Made by a program: the position numbers and the translations under genes. Shown here in pieces: positions 17,074 to 23,119 of a DNA stretch of 64,000 bases. Each line of letters starts with the position of its first letter. The stretch's first letter is position 1. The DNA comes from Terriglobales bacterium (GTDB taxonomy: Bacteria > Acidobacteriota > Terriglobia > Terriglobales > Acidobacteriaceae), in NCBI GenBank assembly GCA_035764005.1, contig DASTZZ010000111.1, forward strand, positions 62,001 through 126,000. The letters run 5' to 3'. The notes under the pieces are model-generated. The model did not search any database and was not told the origin of the DNA. It saw nothing but the letters and a program-made list of their open reading frames with translations.

Positions 17074-17181
17074 TTTGCGCGCGGGCTCCACTCAACTCAT
17101 TCTGCGCGCGGTTCGCTGAGAGTTTCTCCACGAACAGTGCCAAAGCTGGCAGCTTGCAGCGCTGAGCTGCTAAAATATCTA

Positions 17182-17212
17182 GTTGAAATTGAAATTCATT
17201 TTCAATTTCAAC
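17182..17212. promoter_or_regulatory. 31-bp Fur-like palindrome, candidate operator of the metal-transport operon
   Basis: Two perfect 13-bp arms, GTTGAAATTGAAA and its reverse complement, flank a 5-bp centre (17195-17199). The right arm ends 13 bp before the FTR1 start codon. It also reads as four Fur-type hexamers, GAAATT-GAAATT-C-ATTTTC-AATTTC. The 19 bases from 17185 match 14 of 19 positions of the E. coli Fur consensus. A possible -10 (TAAAAT, 17171-17176) lies just upstream. Metal-dependent repression is inferred; the binding protein could be a Fur homologue elsewhere or the DtxR-like domain encoded in this operon. Confidence 0.75.
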
Positions 17213-17225
17213 TTCTGATTTCTTC

Positions 17226-18509
17226 ATGCTGCAAGCCCTTATCGTCACTCTCCGGGAAGGCGTAGAAGCCGCTCTCATTATTGGCATTACTCTGGCGTAC
17301 CTGAAGAAAATTGGCCGCCCTGATCTACGCCGGACCGTCTACATCGCTTTAATCGCAGCTTTCGTTTCCAGCATCGGCGTAGCTATCGCACTCTCTCGGA
17401 CACAATTCAATCAGGATGTCTTCGAAGGCGTGGTGATGCTCATTGCAGCATTCTTTGTGGTCACCATGATCTGGTTCATGGGACGTGCCGCTAAGAAGCT
17501 GAAGGGCGAGATCGAAAGCAGGATAGGTGGATTTGCGGCGAAAAGCAGTGGCCTTGGCCTGTTCCTGTTCATCTTCCTGATGGTGCTGCGCGAAGGGGTT
17601 GAGACCGTTCTGATCCTCGCGGCTGTTGAGTTCAACTCCACTCAGTTGCTCAGCTTTATGGGGACGTTGGTTGGAGTGATTCTCGCGATCATCTTTGGCG
17701 TGATGTTCGTGAAGGGCAGCGTGCGCATTAATCTGCAGCGGTTCTTCCGTGTGACAACTGTCATTCTCGTGTTCGTCGCCGCTCAGCTCCTCGTCTCTGG
17801 TCTGCACGAGCTTTCCGAGAATGGGATTTTGCCCTCGAGCAAGCAGGAGATGGCGATCATTGGACCGATCGTCCGCAACGATCTTTTCTTCTTTATAACG
17901 ATTCTCGCCCTCGCCGCTCTAATGATCCTCTTCGATCAGCGCAGGAGACAAGGTGCTCCGCCGCGCGGTGGCTCAGGTGCGAGCGCGATCGGAACTGATG
18001 TCGAGTCGCGAGCGGTGCGACGGAAGGCGCAATGGTCGGCGCGCAAAGAGAAGCTATGGTCAACGGCCGTTTACGCATCATCCTTCGTTTTCATCGTTCT
18101 CGTCACGGCCCAGTTCATCTATGCCAAGAGCACCTCTTCCCTGTCTCCAGCCCATGAACTCGCCATAACGAATGGTCAGGTTGATATTCCCCTAAATGAC
18201 GTTTCGGATGGCAACTTGCATCGCTACTCCGTGAACCTTGATGGCAAAGAGATTCGCTTCCTCCTGTTCAAGAAACCGGACGGGAACGTAGTAACAGTGC
18301 TCGATGCGTGTCAGATATGCGGCCCGGTCGGCTTTTACAAGAGTGGCAATCAGATCATCTGCAAGAACTGCTCGGCCCCAGTAAATCCGCAATCCGTTGG
18401 ACAGGCGGGCGGATGCAATCCGATTCCAATCAAATCCACCAGCAACGGACAGCAGATCGTTATTACTCAAGCCGATCTCACGACTTCCCTGCCGGTCTTT
18501 GGAAAGTAG
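17226..18509 (+). CDS. FTR1-family iron permease fused to DUF2318 Fe-S-type domain
   Basis: 427 residues. The N-terminal membrane part has both FTR1 signatures, REGVE at 10-14 and 122-126, in the first and fourth helices; these acidic motifs carry iron through the channel. The C-terminal ~110 residues form a DUF2318 domain with paired cysteines at 362/365 (DACQICG) and 379/382 (CKNC) plus GGCNP, a proposed metal or Fe-S binding module. In the Campylobacter P19 system, as I recall, FTR1 and a DUF2318 protein are separate genes beside two ABC permeases and an ATPase; here they are fused and no p19 gene is seen. A Fur-like palindrome precedes it. No clear Shine-Dalgarno is present. Confidence 0.9.
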   Translation: MLQALIVTLREGVEAALIIGITLAYLKKIGRPDLRRTVYIALIAAFVSSIGVAIALSRTQFNQDVFEGVVMLIAAFFVVTMIWFMGRAAKKLKGEIESRIGGFAAKSSGLGLFLFIFLMVLREGVETVLILAAVEFNSTQLLSFMGTLVGVILAIIFGVMFVKGSVRINLQRFFRVTTVILVFVAAQLLVSGLHELSENGILPSSKQEMAIIGPIVRNDLFFFITILALAALMILFDQRRRQGAPPRGGSGASAIGTDVESRAVRRKAQWSARKEKLWSTAVYASSFVFIVLVTAQFIYAKSTSSLSPAHELAITNGQVDIPLNDVSDGNLHRYSVNLDGKEIRFLLFKKPDGNVVTVLDACQICGPVGFYKSGNQIICKNCSAPVNPQSVGQAGGCNPIPIKSTSNGQQIVITQADLTTSLPVFGK

Positions 18510-18514
18510 GACTT

Positions 18515-19765
18515 GTGTTTCTTCGGCTCCTATACCAATCCTTCCGGCGGCAGCAGAGGAGAAAACTGCTTGCAGGGATCGCCGTCATACTCGGCGTCGC
18601 CGTCGCTACGGCGATGATCGCTGTTGGCGTAGATGTTGGGGATAAGATCAACCGCGAACTACGCAGCTATGGCGCCAATATCGTTGTCTATCCCGAAGAC
18701 GCGGCGCTCGATGTGAGCGTCGGCGATCAGCAGATTAAACCTGTTTCGGGCGGCGCACATTTGAACGAATCGGATCTGCCAAAGATCAAGGGAATTTTTT
18801 GGGGACACAACATCCTCGCTTTTGCTCCTTTCCTCGAGACCACAAAAGAGGTTGAAGGTCATCAAGTCAGAGTGATAGGCACTTATTTCGATAAGCAGCT
18901 TCATTTTGGAAATGAAGCATTCCGAGCGGGAGTTCGTAAGCTATATCCGTGGTGGAAGATCGAGGCCGGAGGTTGGCCCGATGATCAGAGCGGCGGAGTG
19001 CTCATAGGATCTAGACTGGCACAACAGCTTCACCACGGGTGGGAACAGGGAAAGTTAACGAAGCTAGGGAGAGTCTCAGGAATCCTGACCACGGGCGGCT
19101 CTGAGGACATGGCTCTTGTCGTACCGCTTGCTGTCGCCCAAAAGCTCGCAGACAAACCAAACGCTGTAGACAAAATCTACGTTAGTGCGCTCACAAAGCC
19201 TGAGGACGCCTTCGCGCGCCGCGATCCTGCACGCATGAATGCTGCGGACCATGACCGCTGGTACTGCTCGCCATACGCGAACTCGATTGCTTTCCAACTT
19301 CAGGAAACCTTCCCCGGCTCGCGCGCCGAGCAGATTCGACAGGCGGCACAGAACGAGGGCGCAGTACTCTCTCACATTTCCGGCATGATGCTTCTGATTG
19401 CCATCGCATCGCTCATAGCGGCGGCACTCGTAGTTTCCGCGGCAATGGCGACTACCATTTTGGAACGGCGCCGCGAAGTCGGATTGATGAAGTCGCTCGG
19501 AGCAACAGCTGCGACCATTGCTTCATTGTTCGTGACTGAGGCTTCCCTGCTTGCTATTGTCGCTGGGCTGATTGGATTCGGGCTGGGCACCGTGATCGCG
19601 CAGCGCATCGGACGAACGATTTTCCATTCCGGCGTAGAGATCGCGCCTGTGCTTCTGCCCATCGTGATCTTCCTCGCGCTGCTGGTCACGATCGGCGGCA
19701 GCGCCGCGGCGATTCGACGCGCACTGCGTCTCGATCCTGTTGTGGTGCTGCGAGGCGACGCATGA
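18515..19765 (+). CDS. FtsX/MacB-type ABC transporter permease (first of two)
   Basis: About 416 residues from GTG 18515, five bases after the FTR1 stop and preceded by TAGGA; the frame is open further upstream but overlaps FTR1. One N-terminal helix (LLAGIAVILGVAVATAMIAV) precedes a large periplasmic MacB-like domain. The C-terminal FtsX core has three helices with LERRREVGLMKSLGATAATI, the coupling segment that contacts the ATPase. It forms the membrane part of a heteromeric transporter with the next gene. In MacB-like systems such permeases move substrates across the envelope by a mechanical stroke rather than a classical channel. Confidence 0.88.
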   Translation: MFLRLLYQSFRRQQRRKLLAGIAVILGVAVATAMIAVGVDVGDKINRELRSYGANIVVYPEDAALDVSVGDQQIKPVSGGAHLNESDLPKIKGIFWGHNILAFAPFLETTKEVEGHQVRVIGTYFDKQLHFGNEAFRAGVRKLYPWWKIEAGGWPDDQSGGVLIGSRLAQQLHHGWEQGKLTKLGRVSGILTTGGSEDMALVVPLAVAQKLADKPNAVDKIYVSALTKPEDAFARRDPARMNAADHDRWYCSPYANSIAFQLQETFPGSRAEQIRQAAQNEGAVLSHISGMMLLIAIASLIAAALVVSAAMATTILERRREVGLMKSLGATAATIASLFVTEASLLAIVAGLIGFGLGTVIAQRIGRTIFHSGVEIAPVLLPIVIFLALLVTIGGSAAAIRRALRLDPVVVLRGDA

Positions 19766-20868
19766 GTCTGCGTCGCTCCATGTTCTTCCACCTGCTCCGA
19801 CGCGGACTACTCGGACGTGGCAATCGTCCTGTGATTGCGCTCATTGCATTGACCATTGCGGCCACGATAATCACAGCGATGCTGAACCTCTACTACGGGC
19901 TTGAGAGCAAACTCAATCGCGATTTTCGTGCCTATGGAGCAAATGTCACTGTCGCCGCACCGGAAGGAAGTATTCTTCCGCCGGAAGCTTTCGAGAAAGC
20001 CCAGCAAATTCTGCCACCAGGTTCGCTTGTCGTGCGGTTTGCGTTTGCGATTGCGCACGCGAGCGATGGAAGCGCTATTGTCATCGCCGGCACTGATTTT
20101 TCCAAGCTGCAGAACCTCGACAAATGGTGGCTGGTTTCAAAATGGCCCACGCGAACCGATGAAGCTATCGTCGGCGTGAAAGCCGAACCACACATTTCTC
20201 CATCCAATGGCAGCTTCGATCTGAATTTCTCCGACCGCACTCTGCATCTGATTGAAGCGACGACGGTAAGGACAGGCGCCGAAGAGGAGAATCGGATTTA
20301 CATCTCGTTGCCCGGCTTCGAAAGTTGGACCGGCGTTCAACCTTCTTTGCTCGAAGTCTCCGTTCCCGGCTCTCGCCAGCAGGTCAATGCTGCCATTCGG
20401 CAACTGCAATCAGCGTTTCCATCGATGCAGGTGCGTCCGGTACGGCAACTTCTGGAAGCTCAGGGCGCAGTAATTACCCGCATGCGTTCGGTGATGCTCG
20501 CATCGACGTTGCTCATCACGCTCATGGTCGCGCTCTGCGTGTTTTCGACACTCACTTCATCTGTGCTGGAGCGACGACGGGATTTTGCTGTCATGAAGGC
20601 GATCGGATCGTCGCAAACTACAGTCAACGGATTGTTTGCCGGAGAGGCGGTTGTAATCGCGCTTATCGCGGCATTAAGCGGATATCTACTCGGCTCCGGA
20701 CTCGCCGCGTGGATTTCGAAGGCAAACTTCTATACCGCAGTTACGCCCAGGATCGCAGTGCTTCCCCTGGTGATTGCATGCAGCGTCGCATTGGCACTGC
20801 TCGCGGCACTGCTGCCGCTCGCGCAGTTGCAAGGGATTGAGCCGGCGGGCATCCTTAAAGGCGAATAA
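19762..20868 (+). CDS. FtsX/MacB-type ABC transporter permease (second of two)
   Basis: 368 residues. It overlaps the first permease by ATGA (19762-19765), indicating translational coupling. The architecture is the same: an N-terminal helix (VIALIALTIAATIITAML), a periplasmic domain, and a C-terminal FtsX core with LERRRDFAVMKAIGSSQTTV. The two permeases are clearly paralogous, sharing the N-terminal RDFRAYGAN / RELRSYGAN segment, so the transporter is probably a permease heterodimer. Its stop overlaps the ATPase start (TAATG at 20866-20870). Confidence 0.88.
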   Translation: MSLRRSMFFHLLRRGLLGRGNRPVIALIALTIAATIITAMLNLYYGLESKLNRDFRAYGANVTVAAPEGSILPPEAFEKAQQILPPGSLVVRFAFAIAHASDGSAIVIAGTDFSKLQNLDKWWLVSKWPTRTDEAIVGVKAEPHISPSNGSFDLNFSDRTLHLIEATTVRTGAEEENRIYISLPGFESWTGVQPSLLEVSVPGSRQQVNAAIRQLQSAFPSMQVRPVRQLLEAQGAVITRMRSVMLASTLLITLMVALCVFSTLTSSVLERRRDFAVMKAIGSSQTTVNGLFAGEAVVIALIAALSGYLLGSGLAAWISKANFYTAVTPRIAVLPLVIACSVALALLAALLPLAQLQGIEPAGILKGE

Positions 20869-22097
20869 TGTCGATCGAGATCATCAATGTTCGCAAGATC
20901 TACCCGGGCGGCCAACGCGGCCAGGCCGGCGAAATTCGTGCGCTCGACGGCATCTCACTCGGCGTACGCAAGGGCGAATGGCTCGCCATTATGGGACCTT
21001 CAGGCTCAGGGAAATCATCACTGGTGAACTTGATTGGCTGCCTTGATCGACCAAACTCAGGCGAGATCTACATTGATGGTCAGGATCTGAAGGAGCTCGC
21101 CGGCTCCGAGCTCAATCGCTTTCGCGCCGAGAAGATCGGCTTCATCTTCCAACAGTTTCACTTGATTCCGTATCTCACTGCTCTGGAAAATGTGATGCTC
21201 GCGCAGTACTTTCATTCCATGACGGACAAGCAGGAGGCATTGGAAGCGCTCGACCGAGTAGGACTGAAGGATCGCGCGAATCATCTTCCTGCACACCTTT
21301 CTGGCGGCGAACAGCAGCGCGTTTGCATCGCGCGTGCGTTGATCAATGATCCGAGCATCCTCCTCGCCGATGAACCGACTGGGAATCTTGATGCCAAGAA
21401 CGAAGAGATTGTTCTGCGCCAGCTGCGCGAGTTGCATCGCCAAGGGCGAACTATTGTGATGGTCACGCACGATCCGGTGGTGGCACGGCTGGCTGACCGC
21501 TCCATCGAACTGCACCACGGAACGATCGCGAATCAGCAGATGTTCAACATGTCCGACGAGATGCAATTCGACGAGGTGCTGGAAGAAATTTGGACGCTCC
21601 ACGAAAACGGTGAACTTGCTGAAGTTGGTCGAATGCAAGTTGATGGCGCCCTGCCTGTCGCGCTCGCCGTAGATCGGATGGAAGAGCTTGGATTGGTTCG
21701 CAAACGCCCGCATGGAGCCGCGGATCACACGCACAAAGACGTCCTAAACCGTTGCCATGAAGTTGTTCATCCGCAAACGCATTCCACTGAGCACGGGCAG
21801 TTCATTGTTGAATTCACGCCCGCCGGCCGGCGGCGCGCAGCGGATGTGATTCGCCGCCATCGCCTGGCGGAGCGTCTGTTCACGCAAACCTTGCAGGTGC
21901 AGAACGAGGACGAAATCGAGCAGCAGGCCTGCAAATTCGAGCACATCCTTTCACCTGAGGTCACCGATAAGATTTGTTCTTTTTTGGGACACCCTGAGAC
22001 TTGTCCGCACGGTAGCGCGATTCCTGCAGGAGAGTGCTGCGAGAAGGCAGGGAAGTCAGAAACGCGGGCCTTGGAAAAGAATCACGTCGAAGCATAG
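20868..22097 (+). CDS. ABC transporter ATPase fused to a DtxR/MntR-type metalloregulator domain
   Basis: 409 residues. Residues 1-225 are a MacB/LolD-class ATPase: Walker A GPSGSGKS (43-50), signature LSGGE (144-148), Walker B ILLADEP (164-170) and H-loop His201. Residues 230-280 look like a degenerate winged helix (FDEVLEEIWTLHENGEL). Residues 315-382 match the DtxR dimerisation/metal-binding domain: FTPAGRR, VIRRHRLAERLF, ACKFEH and GHPETCPHG. By my alignment His331, Glu335, Cys355, Glu358 and His359 correspond to DtxR His79, Glu83, Cys102, Glu105 and His106, while DtxR His98 is Glu351. A His-rich insert (282-309; seven His and one Cys) replaces the wing. Metal control of ATPase activity or of transcription is inferred. 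It is in frame throughout, with no sign of a frameshift. Confidence 0.9.
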   Translation: MSIEIINVRKIYPGGQRGQAGEIRALDGISLGVRKGEWLAIMGPSGSGKSSLVNLIGCLDRPNSGEIYIDGQDLKELAGSELNRFRAEKIGFIFQQFHLIPYLTALENVMLAQYFHSMTDKQEALEALDRVGLKDRANHLPAHLSGGEQQRVCIARALINDPSILLADEPTGNLDAKNEEIVLRQLRELHRQGRTIVMVTHDPVVARLADRSIELHHGTIANQQMFNMSDEMQFDEVLEEIWTLHENGELAEVGRMQVDGALPVALAVDRMEELGLVRKRPHGAADHTHKDVLNRCHEVVHPQTHSTEHGQFIVEFTPAGRRRAADVIRRHRLAERLFTQTLQVQNEDEIEQQACKFEHILSPEVTDKICSFLGHPETCPHGSAIPAGECCEKAGKSETRALEKNHVEA

Positions 22098-22132: not shown

Positions 22133-23119
22133 ATGAGCAAGTCTGATCCGATTGAGAAGGCTCTTGACCGTATCGCCGAGTTGCGTCACGGAGACCCGTC
22201 TCCTCGGGATACTGACGAGATTCGCCGGTTCCTCACACACAAATCGAATCTCGTCGTTTCCAAAGCCGCGAAGCTAGTCGCAGAACAACGCCGATCGGAG
22301 TTTGTTCCCGATCTGGTTTCCGCATTCCATCGTTTTATGGCCAATCCGGCACAACTCGACAAGAGATGTGCCGCGCTCACCGGAATTACCGAAACCCTCT
22401 ATGAGATGGACTACTGCGAGCCAGACATTTACTTGCAAAGCCTGCGCCATGTTCAGATGGAAGCATCATTCGGTCCACCGGTCGATGCCGCTGCTGCTCT
22501 GCGTGGAATATCCGCTCAAGCTCTTCTGCGCACGCGCTACGAAGACGCGATGGCCGCGGTTCTGCCTCTGCTCGTCGACCGCGAGCCGCCTGCCAGAATC
22601 GGGGCGGTTCGCGCACTTGCAATCAATGGCGGCACCGCAGGCGCTCTTCTTTTACGGCTAAAGGTGCTGACGGGTGATTCGGAACCGGAGGTAATCGCGG
22701 AGTGCTTCTTGGGATTACTAAGCAACGCACCGGACGAATCGCTTTGCTTCGTTGCCGGCTTTATGGACGCTGACGATCAAGCGATATCAGATGCGGCCGT
22801 CTGGGCACTAGGACAATCCCGTCTGCCGGCAGCTTTCGAGGCGCTAAAAAATAAGTGGGAGAGGACAATTGAGCGCGATCAGCGAAGACGGATTTTATCG
22901 GCTATTGCAATGCTGCGACTGGAGAGTGCTGTTGAATTGCTATGTTCGATTATTTATTCGGAAAACCAAACTACTGCGAGCGACGCTTTGAATGCGCTCG
23001 CAACATTCAAATCGAACAGGAATATCCGCGAGGCGGTCGCAACGGCAGTTCGGAAGCGATGCGATAACAATTTACAGAGCACGTTCGTCCGCGAATTTGG
23101 CGAAACAAATCCTGAGTGA
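22133..23119 (+). CDS. HEAT-repeat protein
   Basis: 328 residues from ATG 22133; the open frame extends to 22034 but that part overlaps the ATPase gene. The sequence is all-helical with HEAT/PBS-lyase-type repeats, for example PARIGAVRALAINGGTAGA, PEVIAECFLGLLSNAPDESL and AISDAAVWALGQSRLPAAF. It has no catalytic motif. It is downstream of the iron-linked transporter with only a hairpin between, and the next structure is a strong terminator, so it is probably the last gene of that transcript. Its role there, perhaps as a scaffold, is unknown. Confidence 0.75.
   Translation: MSKSDPIEKALDRIAELRHGDPSPRDTDEIRRFLTHKSNLVVSKAAKLVAEQRRSEFVPDLVSAFHRFMANPAQLDKRCAALTGITETLYEMDYCEPDIYLQSLRHVQMEASFGPPVDAAAALRGISAQALLRTRYEDAMAAVLPLLVDREPPARIGAVRALAINGGTAGALLLRLKVLTGDSEPEVIAECFLGLLSNAPDESLCFVAGFMDADDQAISDAAVWALGQSRLPAAFEALKNKWERTIERDQRRRILSAIAMLRLESAVELLCSIIYSENQTTASDALNALATFKSNRNIREAVATAVRKRCDNNLQSTFVREFGETNPE

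Follow-up and report, generated by a model that had tools for sequence, protein, structure and literature searches.

Iron import in bacteria is thought to be set mainly at the level of transcription, by regulators such as Fur and DtxR. The window analysed here, a stretch of 64,000 nucleotides from a Terriglobales bacterium, contains an operon in which a domain of the DtxR family is attached to the ATPase of the transporter itself. The locus thus raises the question of what a repressor-derived domain does at such a place: Does it still bind DNA, or does it act on the transporter that carries it? The protein corresponds to FetD extended by a DtxR-derived domain. We favour the idea, with a probability of roughly 60%, that this fused domain gives direct metal feedback on the transporter and that the transcription of the operon is left to Fur.

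The genes of the operon (17226-22097) overlap or nearly touch each other and the ATPase gene (Table 1), and the identical gene order is found again in related loci. The initial annotation had already described an iron-linked transporter operon around the fusion, and the Pfam matches to FTR1, DUF2318 and two permeases bear this out; that the operon is of the Fet type had not been recognised. In the C. jejuni Fet system, fetM encodes the FTR1 protein, fetA the DUF2318 protein, fetBC the permeases and fetD the ATPase, and fetM, fetP and fetA-fetD are each required for normal growth under iron limitation (PMC10783030, PMC6083913). Judged by its predicted products, our operon resembles this iron-uptake system: As in C. 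jejuni fetMP-fetABCDEF, the genes for FTR1, DUF2318, both permeases and the ATPase stand together in a cluster with a Fur box. In contrast to C. jejuni, the FetM and FetA parts form one protein, and FetD bears a DtxR domain, a term with no occurrence in PMC6083913. Moreover, a search of the genome, which is 97.5% complete, for P19/FetP (PF10634) at E 0.01 was negative (one of 14 control genomes was positive), and genes for the thioredoxins FetE and FetF are absent at the locus, where the next gene downstream encodes a HEAT-repeat protein. This HEAT-repeat gene (22133-23119) was considered as a partner and rejected, because none of the other 109 loci gave a match to it at E 1e-8; the flanking MqnE gene had no match in these loci either.

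Table 1. Features of the Fet-like operon and of the fusion protein (positions in the window).
Feature	Position	Strand	Details
33-bp palindrome upstream of the operon	17181..17213		core TTGAAATTCATTTTCAA, 17 bp, 17189-17205, Fur-type box
FTR1 iron permease fused to FtrD-like (DUF2318) domain, corresponding to FetM and FetA parts	17226..18509	+	PF03239, E 3e-38; PF10080, E 1e-32
MacB/FtsX-type permease, FetB-like	18515..19765	+	GTG start (chosen by reading the sequence) 5 bp past the previous stop; PF02687, E 6e-17; PF12704, E 3e-11
Second MacB/FtsX-type permease, FetC-like	19762..20868	+	4-bp overlap with the preceding gene; PF02687, E 1e-16
FetD-like ABC ATPase with C-terminal DtxR-like domain	20868..22097	+	409 aa; 1-bp overlap with the preceding gene
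Nucleotide-binding domain	20868..21533	+	residues 1-222; ABC_tran 26-171, E 5e-37 (Pfam)
Degenerate winged-helix part	21555..21815	+	residues 230-316; PF01325 below cut-off
His/Cys-containing wing insert	21705..21800	+	residues 280-311; alignment, low pLDDT
DtxR metal-binding and dimerisation domain	21816..22025	+	residues 317-386; PF02742
Cys/His tail C370, H375, C379, H381, C390, C391	21975..22040	+	alignment

The fusion gene is a single open frame of 409 codons that runs from an ATG at 20868 to a stop codon at 22097, and the proposal that it encodes an ABC ATPase and a DtxR-like C-terminal domain in one frame is borne out by the profile matches of both halves. In the ATPase half, Walker A (GPSGSGK, residues 43-49), LSGGE (144-148), ADEPT (167-171) and H201 are present, with Walker B, signature and H-loop intact, and these elements are invariant in 29 aligned homologues; in the wider class set, five frames deviate, with MSGGE (L190), LSAGE (L194, L210), LSTGE (L209) or ADEPA (L279). 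The C-terminal half shows the predicted similarity to DtxR and IdeR both in profile and in structure comparisons: Fe_dep_repr_C (PF02742) matches with 94 bits against a cut-off of 27 (E 5.4e-27), and among solved structures, DtxR/IdeR chains are closest in sequence (best E 9.6e-15, or 3e-23 with a family profile, the alignment of which runs from the first helix of the winged-helix part onward). In the AlphaFold model, the C-terminal 191 residues have a pLDDT of 90.9, and this part matches DtxR (2qq9) with a Z score of 17.2 and an rmsd of 2.0 Å over 134 residues. The domain thus shares the fold, the dimerisation domain and the metal ligands with DtxR, IdeR and MntR, but it differs from them in a decayed helix-turn-helix (HTH), in an extra Cys/His tail, in its position behind an ATPase and in the lack of the SH3/FeoA domain (PF04023), which is not universal in the DtxR family and had no match in the fusion protein or elsewhere in the genome.

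A sequencing error or frameshift that joins two separate genes is excluded as the origin of this architecture. In a class survey of 200 genomes, FetD was found in 102 at E 1e-80 or better; 74 of these genes are fused, and the other 28, each of the genes having been read individually, simply stop at the ATPase. An ATPase and a DtxR part encoded by separate genes were not seen in the relatives. In the best 80 of 436 relatives, all acidobacterial, both parts lie in one frame at 76 of the 80 loci and the remaining four are cut by a contig end. Among 61 relatives including the genome itself, there were 23 full-length matches; 22 of them are free of internal stops, and in the remaining one (G030) stops occur only after the CC motif. 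Another six frames, the matches of which ended early because they lack the wing insert, are also fused, and in G008 and G010 the fusion gene is divided over contig ends. In a set of 92 class loci, 65 frames are fused; of these, L204, L206 and L233 run into a contig end before they reach the CC motif, L208 has a garbled core and L266 an altered tail. The tail-less form belongs largely to one genus group (g49; 20 of the 28 genes), and the four g49 operons that were checked are all complete. The fusion is widely conserved and present in many Acidobacteria; the genomes compared are all of this phylum.

The patterns HxxxE, CxxEH and GHPETCPHG pointed out in the initial annotation are present as described (H331/E335, C355/E358/H359 and G374-G382). 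In an alignment of 29 fusions, from which L024 was left out because it is cut by a contig end, H331, E335, E358, H359, C370, H375, C379, H381, C390 and C391 are found in every sequence and C355 in all but one (28 of 29). A second alignment samples the phylum with 40 sequences, of which 32 are fused and 8 unfused; of 47 prepared rows, seven others, each of them fused, were omitted. Here, E335, E358, H359 and the Cys/His tail are invariant in all 40, and C355 as well as two acidic residues on helix 1 of the winged-helix part, E236 and E239, are kept in at least 90% of the rows. H331 is replaced by Gln in five rows (L126, L130, L132, L135, L139). From their conservation and position, E236 and E239 are likely metal ligands. 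We take E239 to be the counterpart of Glu11 of MntR, and H331 and E335 to be those of His79 and Glu83 of DtxR. E236 aligns with the ligands Met10 of DtxR and Asp8 of MntR, and C355, E358 and H359 with the ligands Cys102, Glu105 and His106 of DtxR (PMC4805248). PgMntR, which has an Asp-Cys-Glu-His set, binds Fe(II), and the Cys is crucial for this; nevertheless, Mn(II) is the better metal for DNA binding by PgMntR, and the complex of the protein with DNA is made less stable by Fe(II) (PMC4805248). The metal of the fusion can therefore not be inferred from the ligand set. C370, H375, C379 and H381 are not Cys or His in the aligned solved IdeR chains, and C390 and C391 lie beyond the alignment; the Cys/His tail may form another site, either for a second metal or for an iron-sulfur cluster.

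Within the genus (6 genomes, 15 pairs), where dS is saturated and dN alone was used, the ATPase has a mean dN of 0.069, and the winged-helix core and the metal core both have a value of 0.057. The wing insert reaches 0.19, which is above its surroundings, and the last 16 residues 0.90. Thus, outside the insert, the appendage up to the CC motif is under the same degree of constraint as the ATPase. The insert itself is missing in the alignment from the sister-family homologues L025-L030. In most members of the one family that has it, it carries a pattern HxHK...NxCH[DE], and it might be a further metal site.

The conserved ligands can also be read in two other ways. The tail could serve as a metallochaperone, i. 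e. as a site that receives or stores iron, takes over the ferrous iron imported by FTR1 or feeds redox chemistry, and does not switch the ATPase. The extra invariant Cys and His residues and the FTR1 permease in the operon would suit such a role, as would the idea that the Fet system is redox-driven (PMC10783030). We consider it unlikely: the closest solved structures both by sequence and by fold are metal-sensing repressors, and a metallochaperone has no obvious need for a dimerisation domain or for E236 and E239 on the old winged-helix part. Slightly less probable still is a domain that acts as a dimerisation scaffold and holds two ATPase subunits together, with a vestigial or structural role of the metal. 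The presence of the DtxR dimerisation domain, its lack in 28 of the 102 FetD proteins and the Gln in place of H331 in some rows agree with a scaffold, but most of the ligands are invariant or nearly so in both alignments, while the former DNA-binding part that surrounds them has changed.

The fate of this DNA-binding part bears on the question of whether the protein may still be a repressor. It had been called degenerate, and this is correct: scanned as a fragment, it reaches 13 bits with the HTH profile PF01325 (E 0.11, cut-off 26). The same profile stays below the Pfam cut-off in all 40 sequences of the sub-type; only six of them reach even E 1 (best E 0.0011), and the best row in longer form scores 18 bits. 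By comparison, nine of nine ordinary acidobacterial DtxRs pass with 38-49 bits. In the model, the first and the third helix are present, as are the strands of the wing, but a turn of three residues takes the place of the second helix. From helix 1 onward, the sequence is acidic, with a mean net charge of -4.6 over 48 residues in 32 fused proteins (range -10 to +3) as compared to -1.6 over 55 residues in the nine ordinary DtxRs, with some overlap between the two groups.

The control region of the operon points to another regulator. The palindrome that had been proposed as a site for the fusion (17182-17212) does exist and is 33 bp long, but it fits a Fur-type box: TTGAAATTCATTTTCAA agrees with the delta-proteobacterial Fur box (dFUR-box) WTGAAAATNATTTTCAW (PMC545781) at all positions but one. 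Of 55 related operons, 43 are preceded by a box that scores 14 or higher out of 16 positions, and none of 1100 shuffles, which kept the base composition only, scored above 13. The other 12 of the 55 fused operons score below 14. Outside the family, six fused operons (L153-L155, L158-L160) score 14 in one case, 13 in one and 8-10 in four, and the four tail-less g49 operons are without such a box (scores 9-10). Conversely, in G017, which lacks a DtxR domain and has a tail-less FetD, the box is kept at 14 of 16 positions. The genome has one Fur, and the fusion is the only DtxR domain found in it, as it is in five of six genomes of the genus. From these patterns, the palindrome is most likely used by Fur and not by the fusion. 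The earlier suggestion that the fusion represses its own operon at this palindrome is set aside: the HTH has decayed, and the box is of the Fur type and is kept where no DtxR domain exists. The same observations leave very little room for the broader idea of a bifunctional protein, an ATPase that is also a metal-dependent transcriptional repressor of its own or other operons, even though the domain is of DtxR origin with the DtxR fold including the wing, is the only DtxR domain found in the genome and keeps a well preserved winged-helix core within the genus.

TTGAAATTCATTTTCAA occurs without mismatch at two places in the genome. The other copy (G000:C25:2188-2204, L033) precedes a gene whose 290-aa product has no Pfam match. 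A cytochrome c gene comes next, and the two may belong to the iron-uptake route as a second part.

The tail-less operons have a different upstream element. TTGACGACYAAWTYAGTC is located 57-122 bp before ftr1 in all five readable tail-less operons (four of g49 and that of G017; L239-L242, L163), and it was found in none of the 55 upstream regions of fused operons, where the best place has four mismatches. Since the pattern was derived from the five tail-less operons, the result in the fused ones alone is a test. TTGACGACYAAWTYAGTC may be the operator of another regulator, and the loss of the tail may accompany a changed transcriptional control.

The relatives of the fused domain are found with iron transporters as well. 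The best 30 matches in 396 genomes of the phylum comprise 22 ATPase fusions and eight unfused frames of 215-282 amino acids with a FeoA domain. FeoB adjoins six of the seven unfused DtxR-FeoA genes with examined surroundings (the exception is L149; L138 was left out), and Fur is a neighbour of two; the initial annotation had not noticed that the sub-type also exists in this unfused form beside feoB. A tblastn search of plasmids gave one match, a DtxR-like/FeoA protein of Pelobacter propionicus that is encoded after feoB on pPRO1 (L166:5782-6441, WP_011733790.1). The unfused proteins of Acidobacteriota and Pelobacter share with the fusion the sub-type, the CPHG..IP.G.CC motif and an HTH below the cut-off (in nine of nine unfused forms), but they are separate proteins with a FeoA domain and stand beside FeoB rather than on an ABC ATPase. 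WP_011733790.1 is annotated as a metal-dependent transcriptional regulator and lacks a Pfam match to the DtxR HTH; judged by its sequence, it may be misannotated. In a tree based on 79 columns, in which few forks are resolved, the fused and unfused members of the sub-type stand apart from the ordinary acidobacterial DtxRs with a support of 100/99, and the unfused forms are on one side of a branch with 87/86. Another arrangement in the same phylum joins an MntR-like DtxR domain to an ABC-3 metal permease (L179:4551-5915). Here, too, a DtxR metal domain is mounted on a metal transporter, but it sits on the permease, has the MntR-like ExxEH, lacks the Cys tail and groups with the ordinary DtxRs in the tree. 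We conclude that the fusion of a DtxR domain to a transporter took place repeatedly, and the occurrence of the sub-type on FetD, beside feoB and on the Pelobacter plasmid indicates that it goes with iron transporters. It is tempting to speculate, although we rate this somewhat below even odds, that the sub-type, i. e. the core with the CPHG..IP.G.CC tail, gave up DNA and became a transporter-mounted iron gauge that acts on the Fet ATPase and, as DtxR-FeoA, with the FeoB GTPase, thus giving direct feedback of cytoplasmic iron on two unrelated importers.

How might direct metal feedback on the Fet ATPase work? When ferrous iron is ample in the cytoplasm, it would bind to the DtxR core via E236/E239, H331, E335, C355, E358 and H359, perhaps with a contribution of the Cys/His tail; the metal, the binding of which we infer, could also be Mn(II). 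The metal-bound core would stabilise or re-orient a dimer of two such domains beneath the two nucleotide-binding domains, and the changed dimer would alter ATP hydrolysis, most simply by blocking it, as with the C-terminal domains of MetN and ModC. Both the link between metal binding and ATP hydrolysis and the direction of the change are predictions. With the transcription of the operon left to Fur, the fused domain would be a fast brake at the protein level. In MetN and ModC, the C-terminal domain senses the substrate that is transported and shuts off the ATPase (PMC10710835). The fusion shares with them the position of the domain, C-terminal of the ATPase (the C2 domain in MetN), where a sensor is predicted in our case; it differs in that its permeases are of the MacB/FtsX type and in that inhibition of the ATPase is only predicted. 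The C-terminal sensor domains of MetN and ModC have a fold different from that of the DtxR-like domain.

Several lines of evidence favour the direct metal feedback. A DtxR-like metal and dimerisation domain on a normal ATPase in an iron operon makes direct metal sensing by the motor subunit, one of the two possibilities raised in the initial annotation, the most likely reading. First, the fusion is the prevailing form of FetD in the class (74 of 102), its metal ligands and Cys/His tail are kept as the HTH falls below the cut-off, and the metal and winged-helix cores are as constrained as the ATPase. Second, most related operons have the Fur-type box upstream, and one Fur and no DtxR domain other than the fusion were found in the genome. 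Finally, the sub-type goes with iron transporters, MetN and ModC provide a precedent for the arrangement, and PgMntR binds Fe(II) with an Asp-Cys-Glu-His set. On the other hand, several observations weaken the idea of a brake. The 28 FetD proteins without the domain imply that it is not needed for transport, even though a dispensable domain fits better with an accessory brake than with a catalytic part. To our knowledge, there is no precedent for the regulation of MacB/FtsX-type permeases by such a domain, and this counts against it. Moreover, H331 is not kept in five of 40 rows, the constraint on the winged-helix core could mean that a partner remains, and the substrate transported by FetBCD is unknown (PMC10783030).

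Both halves of the protein come from families already described, and there are other ABC ATPases with a sensor at the C-terminus. We found no paper on a DtxR-ATPase fusion in the open-licence literature, a search that cannot show absence in print. If the proposed feedback holds true, a transporter ATPase with a DtxR metal core would be a direct and fast brake on iron uptake at the protein level, and a family of repressors would have been turned into an allosteric subunit. As FetD occurs naturally with and without the tail within one class, the role of the Fet ABC transporter becomes accessible to tests.
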